Virus record (IMG/VR): IMGVR_UViG_3300042472_000277
Location: 1 to 39,922 of that record
Reading direction: 5' to 3' (one strand)
Length of the DNA stretch: 39,922 bases
DNA from: a virus
The translations under genes and the position numbers were made by a program. Position 1 is the stretch's first letter. Every line of letters starts with the position of its first letter. The notes beneath the pieces were generated by a model. It was given only the letters and a program-made list of their open reading frames with translations, was not told the origin of the DNA and did not search any database. Below are positions 4,266 through 39,922 of this stretch, piece after piece.

Positions 4266-4409
4266 GGTCATCTCCCGGTCATCTCCCGGTCATCTCCCGG
4301 TCAACCTTGGTCATCCCTACTGGTCATCTCCCGGTCATCTCCCGGTCATCTCCCGGTCAACCTAGGTCATCTCCCGGTCATCTCCCGGTCATCTCCCGGT
4401 CAACCTAGG
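4266..4409. repeat. 11-bp tandem repeat array in three triplets
   Basis: Nine copies of GGTCATCTCCC are arranged as three groups of three. Each group is closed by GGTCAACCT(T/A), and one degenerate unit (ggtcatccctact) follows the first group. The higher-order period is about 43 bp in the last two groups. It is non-coding and differs in sequence from the 31-bp array, but both contain CTAGGT junctions. It flanks the accessory cassette on the side of the late genes. Confidence 0.95.
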
Positions 4410-4451
4410 AGTTTACTTTGTGAATACATCAAAAAACACAAAAGGGCGGCA

Positions 4452-7810: not shown

Positions 7811-8053
7811 CTACTCTCCGACAACACGGTCAAGTCCCTCGTCGTGAAACGGAAGTAGGTTAACAAGTTCACCCAAGGGGCTACTTTTGGTTACCGTAGC
7901 ATAGATGCCGTTGTCCTTGAGCATTTGACGGGCAGCGTTAAGGAGTGCTGGGGATGACTCGCCGCCTTTGATTTGTTGAATGAACTCGTCGATCAAAAGA
8001 TCTTGGAGACCCTCCATCTTTAAGGCGCGATCAAAGTGTACTTCTTCACTCAT
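7811..8053 (-). CDS. terS: Terminase small subunit (T7 gp18-like), 80 aa
   Basis: DNA-recognition subunit of the packaging complex. The assignment rests on size (T7 gp18 is 89 aa), position between holin and large terminase as in T7, and the pattern with LLNAARQMLKDNGI, which is common in small terminases of this group. There is no obvious helix-turn-helix. The leader is A-rich (caacaaacaataaaactat). Confidence 0.85.
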   Translation of the reverse strand: MSEEVHFDRALKMEGLQDLLIDEFIQQIKGGESSPALLNAARQMLKDNGIYATVTKSSPLGELVNLLPFHDEGLDRVVGE

Positions 8054-8059
8054 ATAGTT

Positions 8060-8224
8060 TTATTGTTTGTTGTTCTTAAGTTCCTTAAGGATCTTAATGA
8101 CCATGTAAATCAAGGTAGCTAGGCCAACCATTATTGCGATACCTGTGTTCACTTGTTCAAGAGATAGGTTAGCCAAGAGTCCTATGACACCGATCAAAGC
8201 AGGAGGATGTGTGTTGTCGTTCAT
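8060..8224 (-). CDS. Class II-type holin (T7 gp17.5-like), 54 aa
   Basis: Small membrane protein expected to permeabilise the inner membrane and let the amidase reach the wall. The better start is at 8224 (MNDNTHPPALIGVIGL), 4 nt after the tail-fibre stop; an upstream ATG at 8281 would overlap that gene by more than 50 nt. Two hydrophobic segments are visible (about 8-18 and 25-42) with a lysine-rich tail (KILKELKNNK). Its place between gp17 and gp18 equivalents is exactly that of the T7 holin. Confidence 0.85.
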   Translation of the reverse strand: MNDNTHPPALIGVIGLLANLSLEQVNTGIAIMVGLATLIYMVIKILKELKNNKQ

Positions 8225-8228
8225 CCTA

Positions 8229-9335
8229 TTAGGCAATCTTCCAGATTTTAACTGAAGAGTAGAACTCAGGGCGACCCGCAAGGTTCACGGCTGCTCCTAG
8301 TCCATCGGTGGCTCTTGCTGTGGTTGTGTAGTGTTTAAGCTCAAGGACGCTTGGGGTGGTCAAGGTGAACTCACCAAATCCAACGCTGGAGGACGAAGCG
8401 GTTACCGAAGTAAACTCACTGCTTCCGTAGGCGGCTACTGAACTCGCTGTGGTGTTATTAAGCCAACAAGCGTGCGCTCCGACGTGAATTGCAGGCGCTC
8501 TAAATTCCGTGTAGTAAGTCCCAACAGGCAACGTGATCTGGTTGGCATTCAAGGATGCACCTGCAATGACGTTTCCGACTTGCACGTTGAGAGTACGGGT
8601 TACCGTTGTGGCTGCCGTAGCGGCCCCGCCAGCGGTTCCTTGTGTTTTTTGGTCAACAGCAAAGAAGTACTCTTTGGCAAACGGGTTTTGACTATCTGGA
8701 ATAATTAGGTTTTTAGCCGAAAGATCCAAGGTAGCCGCCAGCTTTCCAGCCGTCACGTTGGCATCAAGGATCTTTGAGGTAACTACAGAATTAGCTGCCA
8801 GTTTAGCATCGGTGACCGCAAGGTTCGCTAGTTTCGTTGTGGTTACAGCACCGACGTTGATGTGTTCATCAAGGATGGCGTTGTCAGCGATCTTTGTGGC
8901 AGTAACAGCATCGACGGCTAGTTTCTCAGTGGTGATTGCTCCGTTGTTGATGTCAGCGGTAAAGATGACCGACTTGTTGGCACTGTCTCCTGCATCTTGG
9001 GAAACCTCTTGGGCTGCAAACAACGAGTGTCTGTAGGCTGTGTTAAGGGCATCCTCGGACAACACAGCACCGCTAGTGAAATCAACAAGAGGCAGCACCG
9101 TGGTTGCCCTGTAGATACGAATCTTGGTGTAAGCCGAAGGAGCCGCAGAGAACGTAAGTGTCTTTGTGGTGGTGTTTACCGTTGCGATGGTAGACGTAAT
9201 GTCCGCTTTAGTCGTTCCAGAATACCCGATAGCTCTGACATCTCCTGTAGTAAGGGCATCAAAGCCGTAAACAAAGGTAGTTCCAGAAAGCCCAGTGTCC
9301 GTTTCAAAGTATGAAAGTTCGTAAGTAGTAGCCAT
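8229..9335 (-). CDS. Tail fibre anchor protein (T7 gp17 N-terminal domain), 368 aa
   Basis: The first 120 or so residues match the T7 gp17 head-of-fibre domain that binds the tail (IRIYRATTVLPLVDF, GAVLSEDALNTAYR, LFAAQEVSQDA). Then come repeats of about 15 residues (TTEKLAVDAVTATKIADNAI, TTTKLANLAVTDAKL), typical of a trimeric fibre shaft. The C-terminal domain is a short beta-rich fold ending GRPEFYSSVKIWKIA. At 368 aa it is much shorter than T7 gp17 (553 aa), so it may be mainly an adaptor for the separate fibre genes at 25481-28609. Confidence 0.93.
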   Translation of the reverse strand: MATTYELSYFETDTGLSGTTFVYGFDALTTGDVRAIGYSGTTKADITSTIATVNTTTKTLTFSAAPSAYTKIRIYRATTVLPLVDFTSGAVLSEDALNTAYRHSLFAAQEVSQDAGDSANKSVIFTADINNGAITTEKLAVDAVTATKIADNAILDEHINVGAVTTTKLANLAVTDAKLAANSVVTSKILDANVTAGKLAATLDLSAKNLIIPDSQNPFAKEYFFAVDQKTQGTAGGAATAATTVTRTLNVQVGNVIAGASLNANQITLPVGTYYTEFRAPAIHVGAHACWLNNTTASSVAAYGSSEFTSVTASSSSVGFGEFTLTTPSVLELKHYTTTARATDGLGAAVNLAGRPEFYSSVKIWKIA

Positions 9336-21063: not shown

Positions 21064-22071
21064 TTAACCAATCGTGACAGAAGCTTCAGGACGCAGGACA
21101 CCGTGGCCCATAGCGTACTTAGCAACAAACAGCGTTCCTTGACGCTCGATTTGATACTCGGATTCGGTAGCAAGATCAAGGAGCTTCACCGTGCCGATAG
21201 CACTTGGGTGAGCAACAATCATCTCGATTGCCGAAATGTCAGTAGCGTTGTAGCCGACACCAGAAGCACCGAAGACATCGTTCTTAGCATTTGCATCGTC
21301 AGCATCAGCAGAACCGGAAGCCACCGTAACGGTAGCCAAGTGGTTCGACTTGAAGAGGCGAATACCAGCGATGGTTGGGATCTTGCCAGTAGCAACATTA
21401 CCAGAACCACTGTAGTCACTGCTCATAACGGTCTCATCCGAACCAAGCAGCGTGTAATAGTCACGAGGCTTAAGGATGGCGAAACGCTCGTCCTCTGGGA
21501 CATCCTTTTCGTCCAAGCTTTGAGCAGCCAGCATGAGGGCATCAACGATCTCGGAAGCCAGTGGGGTTGCACTGAGTTTCGAGGTAAGGTTGGTTCCAGC
21601 GTATCCACCAGTGATGGAAGGCGTAGAGGTCAACGCGGCAGCCACAAGGGTCTTCATGGTTGCAATGTCGAAACGCTTTGCAAGAGCCTTGCCGAGTTCC
21701 TTAGCGTAAATGCTACGGACATCGTAGTGGTTCTTGAGTTCGTCAACATTCGCAATGAAGGTCGAAGCAACCAACAGGTCATCGATGGTGATGATCTTTT
21801 CTGCGTGTTTAATACCACTCAGATAGCCAGCATCCGCATCAGCGATGTTTTGACCGGGAGTGTGATATTTAGCAGTTGCGATACCAGTCACAGGGAACTG
21901 AGCAGACTTGCCGCTTTGAATCGTCCGCACCATGTGCAGATCCTTCATCACGTTGAGTTCTTCAAAGGTGGTCAGGATTTCTCCAGAGAACACTTTGAGG
22001 AACAGAGCGTCACGATCACCTGCACCGTTAATTTGTCCAAGGTTGGACGGGGTAGTAGCACCATTAGCCAT
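21064..22071 (-). CDS. Major capsid protein (T7 gp10-like), 335 aa
   Basis: Forms the icosahedral head with the HK97 fold. Recognisable parts are MANGATTPSNLGQINGAGD at the N-terminus, LFLKVFSGEILTTFEELNV, the segment after VRTIQSGKSAQFPVTG, and LVASTFIANVDE; all are typical of T7-like capsids. Length is close to T7 gp10A (345 aa). The end (ASVTIG) shows no slippery sequence for a 10B-type extension. It is flanked by a long structured leader upstream and the T-phi-like terminator downstream, so it probably has its own strongly expressed transcript. Confidence 0.97.
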   Translation of the reverse strand: MANGATTPSNLGQINGAGDRDALFLKVFSGEILTTFEELNVMKDLHMVRTIQSGKSAQFPVTGIATAKYHTPGQNIADADAGYLSGIKHAEKIITIDDLLVASTFIANVDELKNHYDVRSIYAKELGKALAKRFDIATMKTLVAAALTSTPSITGGYAGTNLTSKLSATPLASEIVDALMLAAQSLDEKDVPEDERFAILKPRDYYTLLGSDETVMSSDYSGSGNVATGKIPTIAGIRLFKSNHLATVTVASGSADADDANAKNDVFGASGVGYNATDISAIEMIVAHPSAIGTVKLLDLATESEYQIERQGTLFVAKYAMGHGVLRPEASVTIG

Positions 22072-22612
22072 ATAATTATTCTAGTTTTTAGTTTATTTAG
22101 TTTAACAAGCGTGTCCGTATATTACGTTCGACTATCGTTTACTTGTTAAAGAAAGAACGACTCGGTTGTCCAGCGCACTGGGCCTAGTTCTTGCTTTATA
22201 GCTTTTTAGATTGTCATCCTTTTATGGACGATTTCTCTTTAACTCATTAGTGAGCTAAAGGGGAAAGGGGTGTGGTGGTGAAGGATTCGATACCTTCATT
22301 TCCTGAGACAACTCAGGGTTCTCTTGTTGAACTAACCACCACAAAAGTGACGGCCCGTTAACTCAGTTCGGATTTGGAATCCTTACTGTTGACTCCTTGA
22401 TGCTTTGCAGGACGGGCCAAGCCCACAAGCGGGGGAGTCAAAAGAAATCCCCTACCCCCTAGCGTCCTAGAGGTTCACACGTTAATTCGTGATGTGATTT
22501 GAGCATCGTTGAGAGGCTTGTGGGGCGTGAGTCAAAGACTACATTGTTTTCTGAAACTTGTCCAGTTGAAGCTGAAGCTATCCACGACGGGCCAAGAGCA
22601 GCCTGAAAGAAA
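22072..22612 (-). ncRNA. 541-nt highly structured leader or non-coding RNA upstream of the capsid gene
   Basis: There is no gene here, but inverted repeats succeed each other on the transcribed strand: TTTAACAAG/CTTGTTAAA (22101-22109 with 22142-22150); AAGAAC/GTTCTT around CCAG-CGCA-CTGG (22153-22192); a 10-bp stem with one mismatch (22237-22260); a cloverleaf (22271-22343); GGCCCGT/ACGGGCC (22352-22418); GACTCC/GGAGTC; and the 9-bp long-range pair CCCACAAGC/GCTTGTGGG (22422-22430 with 22516-22524). Such density is unusual for phage intergenic DNA. It could be a stability or translation-control leader of the capsid mRNA, or a separate RNA. No known RNA family is recognised. Confidence 0.6.
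22271..22343 (-). ncRNA. tRNA-like cloverleaf element
   Basis: On the minus strand four perfectly paired stems form a cloverleaf: acceptor-like TGTGGTGGT/ACCACCACA (9 bp), then TA (as at tRNA positions 8-9), GTTC-AACAAGA-GAAC (D-arm position), CCTGAG-TTGT-CTCAGG (anticodon-arm position), AAAT, and GAAGG-TATCGAAT-CCTTC (T-arm position). The T loop is the tRNA loop TTCGAAT with one extra A. The D loop lacks GG and the anticodon loop is too short for decoding, so it is not a functional tRNA but a tRNA-like or degenerate structure, perhaps a processing or protection signal. Confidence 0.55.
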
Positions 22613-22807
22613 TTACTCTTTGGTTTCTAGGTCATTAACGTAGTGAAGTAGATCACCTACGATTACCTTTTGTTCCTTTGTGAAGCTCTCGTTCTTGAGA
22701 CGCTCTAGGAACACTGGGATCTTACTTTGTTTTATCGTCGGTACGCATCCAGTCATCGATAGACTCAGAATGCTTATTGTAAGCGCGACGTAGAAGTTCT
22801 TCTTCAT
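22613..22807 (-). CDS. Small lipoprotein, 64 aa (possible spanin-type)
   Basis: Signal peptide MKKNFYVALTISILSLSMTGC ends in a lipobox-like sequence with the modified cysteine at residue 21. The mature part is about 44 residues with charged helix. I chose the ATG at 22807 because it gives a proper KK signal sequence; in-frame ATGs at 22813 and 22822 would add MCTMS. A phage lipoprotein beside a holin-like gene suggests an outer-membrane spanin, but no matching inner-membrane partner is obvious. T7 has no lipoprotein gene between scaffold and capsid. Confidence 0.75.
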   Translation of the reverse strand: MKKNFYVALTISILSLSMTGCVPTIKQSKIPVFLERLKNESFTKEQKVIVGDLLHYVNDLETKE

Positions 22808-22828
22808 ACTCATGGTACACACGGAAAA

Positions 22829-39294: not shown

Positions 39295-39657
39295 TTATTG
39301 GCAGCTTTCGCATTCGGGGTCATCGAGCCTACAAGCCTCGCCCAATGGCTCGTCCATATCGTCGTCAATAGACTCAAGGTGCATGGTCAAACCACCGTCC
39401 ATCCTGCTCTCCAGCTTCTTGATCCTTAAGTTTGGGAGATCAGGATGATACTCACGGGCAAGGGAGCCGTGGGCGATTAGGGGTCCACCGGAAGGGTCGA
39501 TAAAACTCAAGCCCTCTGAGATGCCGTCCGCAAATCCGCCGAACCTACAATGGTAATCCACTAACGCCAGACGGTAAACTCCGTCGGAGACTTTGATCGC
39601 TGTTACTGTGTGTGTGCCGTAGTGGCCCTTGATTTCAATGGATTCCTGTGTTTTCAT
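39295..39657 (-). CDS. Early protein, 120 aa, unknown
   Basis: No family recognised. A beta-rich N-terminal half (IKGHYGTHTVTAIKVSDGVY, then RLALVDYHCRFGGF) is followed by an acidic C-terminus with a cysteine pair at the end (DPECESCQ) and one before it, possibly a small metal site. It is the first of the contiguous early genes after the conserved 84-aa gene, about 60 nt downstream of it. The leader is A-rich. Confidence 0.72.
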   Translation of the reverse strand: MKTQESIEIKGHYGTHTVTAIKVSDGVYRLALVDYHCRFGGFADGISEGLSFIDPSGGPLIAHGSLAREYHPDLPNLRIKKLESRMDGGLTMHLESIDDDMDEPLGEACRLDDPECESCQ

Positions 39658-39922
39658 TGCTTGGTAAAGTTAGTTGTTTTCAGTGAGCCTTCGGGGTTCG
39701 TTGTATTTTGTGTGTTCATAGTGGTTTAACTTTCGCTAGTTTCTTTTCAAGTGCCTTGTTGAACCTTTCAACATCAGCGTCTCGTATGATCAACCCAATG
39801 GTCTCAGGTCGGGAATTATAGGTTAGCCTGTTGAGGGCCGAAGCAACCCCAAAGGGTACTTTGATATTCCTTGCTGTGTTCATCAGGTTCTTGCCTCGGA
39901 TAAGCGTCATGGATAACGGCAC
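39651..39922. repeat. Right copy of the 272-bp contig-end overlap
   Basis: Matches bases 1-272 at 268 of 272 positions. It begins 7 nt inside the 5' end of the 120-aa gene and ends inside the 84-aa gene, so the break has no relation to gene borders. Joining at this overlap restores one continuous early region. Confidence 0.9.
39716..39922 (-). CDS. 5'-truncated second copy of the 84-aa early gene (variant allele)
   Basis: Same gene as at 66-320, cut at the window edge so that about 16 N-terminal residues are missing. One residue differs (IIRDADVERF here, IIRDSDVERF in the other copy), and the remaining differences are silent. It is an overlap artefact carrying a strain variant, not a duplicated gene. 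Confidence 0.85.
   Translation of the reverse strand: MPLSMTLIRGKNLMNTARNIKVPFGVASALNRLTYNSRPETIGLIIRDADVERFNKALEKKLAKVKPL

Follow-up and report, generated by a model that had tools for sequence, protein, structure and literature searches.

Genome setting and the 541-nt gap

The DNA analyzed here (the window) is a 39,922-base virus record from a T7-like phage whose late genes lie on the minus strand. It has terminal direct repeats of 272 bp that are 99% identical (1-272 and 39651-39922), so it is probably a complete genome; a tyrosine-type integrase is encoded at 325-1143, and among annotated relatives the closest in capsid DNA, at 71%, is an uncultured marine phage. Two further sets of repeats are present, a tandem array of ~31-bp units (GCTCTCGGTGCTCTCTAGGCTGGCTCTAGGT) near the integrase gene, at 1784-2006, and clustered 11-bp repeats (GGTCATCTCCC) at 4266-4414, in an apparently gene-poor stretch. 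The late gene order on the minus strand is portal (25471-23906), scaffold (23893-23105), small lysis-type ORFs (23098-22613), a 541-nt gap and the T7 gp10-like major capsid gene (21064-22071, with its ATG at 22071). An earlier, sequence-only reading of this DNA placed an ORF-free region at 22072-22612. This gap is the exact interval from the stop of the preceding 69-aa, small lipoprotein-like lysis ORF (22613-22822, minus) to the capsid ATG, and its transcribed strand lacks any ORF of at least 40 aa; two plus-strand ORFs overlap it, one of 44 aa (22509-22643) and the other a shadow ORF of the capsid gene. PADLOC found no relevant defence gene among ten small or unassigned ORFs of the window. 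A scan for sigma-70 promoters, a consensus that says little for a T7-like phage, found none.

That reading took the gap for one undescribed structured RNA. Its minus strand does fold far better than expected, at -158 kcal/mol versus -131.4 +/- 6.5 for shuffled sequences (z = -4.11, 0/100), and the plus strand gives z = -2.1, but the first 88 nt (22612-22525), which hold the remnant of a gene, are unstructured (z = +1.4). Nor is there a single element or a single leader: the gap consists of four RNA modules, designated A to D, one of which has a core known from the abiF family (RF03085). Taken piece by piece, the fold z-scores are -4.0 for the cloverleaf (module C), -3.1 for the capsid leader (module D), -2.3 for the abiF module (module A) and -0.7 for module B. 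Compensatory changes, which had been named beforehand as support for such structures, are seen in number among relatives in modules A, B and C. At Rfam gathering cut-offs nothing was detected in the whole window, and ARAGORN called 0 tRNAs there; matches in the gap to SSRC8 (E = 1.1) and STnc540 (E = 6.3) lie far under gathering and have been dismissed as chance.

Module A, an abiF-like RNA

RF03085, the abiF RNA, serves as the antitoxin in the type III-like toxin-antitoxin systems of AbiF/Abi_2. Its core, AAGCCUCUCAACGAUGCUCAAAUC, was identified by a permissive Rfam scan of the gap at 22496-22519 on the minus strand, where 24/24 letters are identical to positions 7-30 of the 37-nt RF03085 model. 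The match scores 31.8 bits (E = 8e-4 in a 581-base search of the gap region only), below the gathering score of 37 bits, and the window copy is therefore abiF-like rather than a curated member of RF03085. The low score reflects the fact that no outer stem adjoins the core; the canonical 6-bp helix is missing there, and in its place a closing stem, CCCCAC (22525-22520) / GU-A-GGGG (22455-22449), encloses two extra hairpins. The resulting long form, module A (22449-22525, minus), has the abiF hairpin followed by hairpin 2 (CACG-AAUUAA-CGUG) and hairpin 3 (CCUCUAG-GACG-CUAGGGG), and this three-hairpin arrangement with its closing stem is the minimum free energy (MFE) fold of 22527-22447. The MFE fold of the copy in L154 has the closing stem and hairpins 2 and 3 alike, with the abiF core paired otherwise; the L119 stretch is cut short at its 5' end and its fold is uninformative. 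Apart from its score and its long form, module A differs from RF03085 in lying in a phage without Abi_2, while it shares with that family the identical 24-nt hairpin core, strand-specific structure and, in the window copy, the AGC/GCU stem.

Across eight phage copies of module A, two-sided changes are found in 11/18 pairs (slid controls, 1-7; shuffles, 1/500). The core stem reads UCC/GGA in place of AGC/GCU in L325 and L332, and hairpin 2 occurs as CACG/CGUG, CGUG/CACG, CAUG/CAUG and UGCG/CGCA; the closing stem has no two-sided change in these eight copies. The three-hairpin long form has been found in viral records only. Three close relatives, L003, L004 and L005, carry a canonical abiF hairpin in the same capsid leader, downstream of the cloverleaf (E = 0.005-0.1, 30.6-35.9 bits), and none was found in the capsid leaders of L001, L002 and L087.

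Module B, a new structured RNA

Module B (22352-22441, minus) is a conserved structured RNA that is new both to Rfam, where the window's gap gives no match for it up to E = 10 and the copies in relatives give none, and to the collection of named phages, in which blastn yielded no convincing match. It is known from 22 distinct copies in viral contigs and comprises an outer helix, P0 (UUGACUCC/GGAGUCAA), a hairpin, P1 (GCUUGUGGG/CCUGCAAAGC, with loop CUUGGCCCGU), and a second hairpin, P2, around GGAUUCCAAAUCC; P0 and P1 each beat 2000/2000 cross-sequence permutations, and P2 beats 1995/2000. We propose that the P1 loop pairs with the 3' strand ACGGGCC (22358-22352) as a pseudoknot; since both strands are invariant across the copies and thus carry no covariation signal, this pairing is inferred from sequence. 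The weak z of module B folded alone is as expected if its core is a pseudoknot, which is beyond the folding program's model. The UUCCAAA of the loop is reminiscent of the anticodon loop of a tRNA, and the end of the module is ACGGGCC-GCCA in many copies; the window has GUCA instead, and module B has not been called a tRNA mimic because the CCA is not conserved.

A long-range helix between 22422-22430 and 22516-22524 had also been put forward for the gap. The 9-bp complement exists but is probably not a native pair: the relatives with the same abiF module, L119, L126, L133 and L135, lack the partner, and GCUUGUGGG is the 5' arm of P1 in L332, L334, L335 and L337, phages in which P1 is conserved without an upstream abiF.

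Cloverleaf and capsid leader

The full cloverleaf claimed for the gap has been located at 22343-22271 on the minus strand (z = -4.0 for 22345-22273). This module C is present in all close relatives inspected; in 8 sequences, 94.8% of cells are paired and two-sided changes affect 8/24 pairs, with 0-2 in slid controls. Like a tRNA, it has a 2-nt linker and D, anticodon and T stems, but it has no D-loop GG and no CCA, its T loop is 8 nt, and a UUGU tetraloop replaces the 7-nt anticodon loop, which sets it outside the definition of a tRNA and accords with the missing ARAGORN call. In L087, whose cloverleaf has a loop of seven bases, ARAGORN calls this element tRNA-Thr, and on that comparison module C appears to be a former tRNA that has become a structural element. 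Module D, the conserved capsid leader (22072-22271, minus), includes hairpins at 22259-22238 and 22231-22214 and shows 3 pairs with two-sided changes in an alignment of 7 relatives. Modules C and D, which are present in close relatives, form the spacer ancestral to this phage clade, and their action is probably in cis, on the late mRNA; the constancy of the cloverleaf beside the capsid leader suggests such a role, which might be, for example, RNase P-type cleavage or 5'-end protection.

The sequence-only reading went further and suggested that the whole gap could be a cis-acting 5' leader governing capsid translation or mRNA stability. Its position on the late strand, immediately before the capsid gene, is in keeping with this, as is the covariation with which the cloverleaf and 3' leader are conserved in relatives, and control of capsid translation is plausible for these two parts only. 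Modules A and B do not fit: both are absent from L002 and L087, which retain the same capsid leader, and in L115 and L119 they occupy other genomic slots, so that they are not needed for capsid expression; module A, moreover, has the core of a family of antitoxin RNAs that act in trans. A cis-acting leader is thus an unlikely explanation for the gap as a whole. The alternative of a free RNA, raised at the same time, suits modules A and B, which more likely act in trans.

Recent import of modules A and B

From 22575 to 22346 the window matches L115 (8389-8618) at 98.3% identity, versus 86-95% in the remaining matches between the two. In L115 the same sequence ends an intact 195-aa ATPase ORF (7845-8432), a homologue of which in L135 matches AAA/IstB models; the window retains just the last codons (22573-22532) of this AAA/IstB-like ATPase gene (remnant at 22532-22575, minus; ..SFNWTSFRKQCSL*), recognized by their match to the end of the L115 ORF. 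The insertion is flanked by two copies of a module B fragment, at 22596-22573 and 22421-22398, and a partial second copy of the module B P1 loop (CUUGGCCCGUCGUGG) lies at 22582-22596 on the minus strand. The CUUGGCCCGUCGUGG copy is a remnant of the module B that preceded the insertion and that is still present in L001. The difference in identity, the gene remnant and the flanking module B fragments together indicate that recombination has recently brought the cassette in from a related phage, where it occupied a different slot.

The flanking gene remnant and partial repeat, along with the patchy presence of modules A and B, would also be expected if these were hitch-hiking mobile RNA relics, now functionless and moved about by homologous recombination at repeats. 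The compensatory changes in both modules across phages show selection on structure, however, the abiF loop sequence has been kept to the base, and unrelated groups of named phages keep an abiF RNA above the Rfam cut-off, all of which makes functionless relics quite improbable.

Other arrangements have been seen in relatives and in another phage. Apparently structured inserts that differ from one relative to the next lie between the cloverleaf and the abiF hairpin in L005 (1440-1560) and L003 (4670-4750), and these may be further RNA modules of the same slot. The other phage, L343, has module B at 577-938, behind the ATPase gene, together with parts of the long-form abiF RNA and a weak element resembling a tRNA.

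abiF RNAs without an adjacent toxin gene

No Abi_2 (PF07751) is encoded in the window, so there is no adjacent toxin gene, and none was found in L001-L005. An exact 20-mer of the abiF core occurs in 111 viral records, many of them fragments, of which 2 encode Abi_2 and 109 do not; in both of the former the motif adjoins the Abi_2 ORF, which served as a positive control. Abi_2 lies directly downstream at 48 of the 95 testable bacterial loci among the matches listed, versus 2/98 viral loci (Fisher p = 3e-16 with those bacterial loci, a value that is only a guide because the bacterial genomes among the matches listed are mostly Bacteroidota and the sequences are not independent). About half of the bacterial 20-mer loci among the matches listed (L204-L323) have no recognizable adjacent Abi_2. 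Since orphan abiF RNAs thus exist in bacteria as well, an orphan copy alone is no proof of counter-defence. What the window does contain is an antitoxin-like RNA in a toxin-less phage, the arrangement to be expected of an antitoxin mimic.

Seven complete genomes of named phages carry an abiF RNA at 50-58 bits, above the Rfam cut-off, without Abi_2: Aeromonas phages T7-Ah and PZL-Ah8, Roseobacter phage CRP-143, Salicola phage CGphi29, Acinetobacter phage Acj61, Mycobacterium phage Thibault and Synechococcus phage S-SZBM1. The T7-like CRP-143 has it between scaffold and capsid, in almost the same slot as the window, and in T7-Ah and PZL-Ah8, also T7-like, it is found between portal and scaffold. 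Other named carriers have it within or next to tRNA genes; that of S-SZBM1 is part of a tRNA cluster. In Thibault, a sub-threshold DUF3800-IV RNA (L349:3381-3462) was also noted beside a tRNA gene, near the abiF RNA. An abiF sRNA has been annotated, as conserved and with no decoy mechanism given, in cyanophage S-CREM1 (PMC9964418); this too is an abiF RNA in a lytic phage, differing from that of the window in its canonical hairpin and in belonging to a myovirus. The genome of lactococcal phage sk1, a DNA region of which protects phage 712 from AbiF according to a review, has no abiF motif in Rfam terms, just two tRNAs, and it therefore neither supports nor refutes a decoy function.

A probable decoy against host AbiF

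AbiF is a HEPN RNase, and abiF RNA complexes it tightly and neutralizes the toxin in trans; RCd22 neutralizes AbiF in trans, for which the abiF stem is required, and mutations that break the stem abolish neutralization while compensatory ones do not (PMC12373285). Module A is probably an RNA decoy against host AbiF, by analogy with pseudo-ToxI of phage PhiTE, a toxin-less mimic of an antitoxin RNA whose antitoxic activity has been shown (PMC3475682). Both are phage copies of an antitoxin RNA without its toxin that were acquired or changed by recombination. The toxin of pseudo-ToxI is ToxN, though, its repeats form pseudoknots as against the hairpins found here, and its antitoxic activity is an experimental result where that of the window's RNA is predicted. 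The RNA anti-CRISPRs (Racrs) are also solitary viral copies of an RNA that is bound by a defence protein, with the difference that they mimic CRISPR repeats (PMC10651486). No proposal of a decoy role for abiF RNA was found in the open-licence literature.

The reading that we prefer, with a probability of roughly 0.6, has two layers: modules C and D probably act in cis, and they are preceded by a cassette of exchangeable RNA, the main known part of which is an abiF-type antitoxin RNA, toxin-less, that serves as a decoy against host AbiF. The abiF-like RNA would be expressed along with the capsid transcript and would bind the Abi_2-type HEPN RNase of a host presumed to have one; AbiF would then stay inactive at the point where the host's own antitoxin RNA is disturbed by infection, and the outcome would be counter-defence against abortive infection, in which module B may also have a part. 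The abiF core, the covarying structure, a phage without Abi_2, the recent import and the patchy presence argue for a decoy, as does the recurrence of abiF RNA in late-gene gaps of other T7-like phages; binding of AbiF is not assured, given the 31.8 bits and the lack of a canonical outer stem next to the core.

AbiF has also been reported, in a review (PMC12737573), to process the RNA cognate to it. This, with the recurrent position between late cistrons in T7-like phages, could mean that the abiF RNA of the phage does not inhibit host AbiF but enlists it, or a different RNase, for processing of phage late mRNA. Among close relatives that share the gene order, abiF is only patchily present, and abiF RNA also occurs in tRNA clusters away from late genes; recruitment is accordingly highly improbable.

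A broader possibility, and a rather doubtful one, is that the capsid-leader gap of these T7-like phages serves as a slot for exchangeable counter-defence RNAs, the abiF decoy among them. Module B, pseudoknotted, widely conserved and with an anticodon-like UUCCAAA loop, would in that case be directed as a decoy at a second RNase of the host or at a defence that targets tRNAs. Were this so, RNA anti-defence would be modular and collected in islands, as anti-CRISPR genes are. If the decoy reading of module A is true, many phages in nature would counter AbiF with toxin-less copies of the antitoxin RNA that belongs to it, as has been shown to date for ToxIN. The toxin concerned would be of the family from which Cas13 is thought to descend, AbiF having been described in a review as related to the Cas13 ancestor (PMC12737573).
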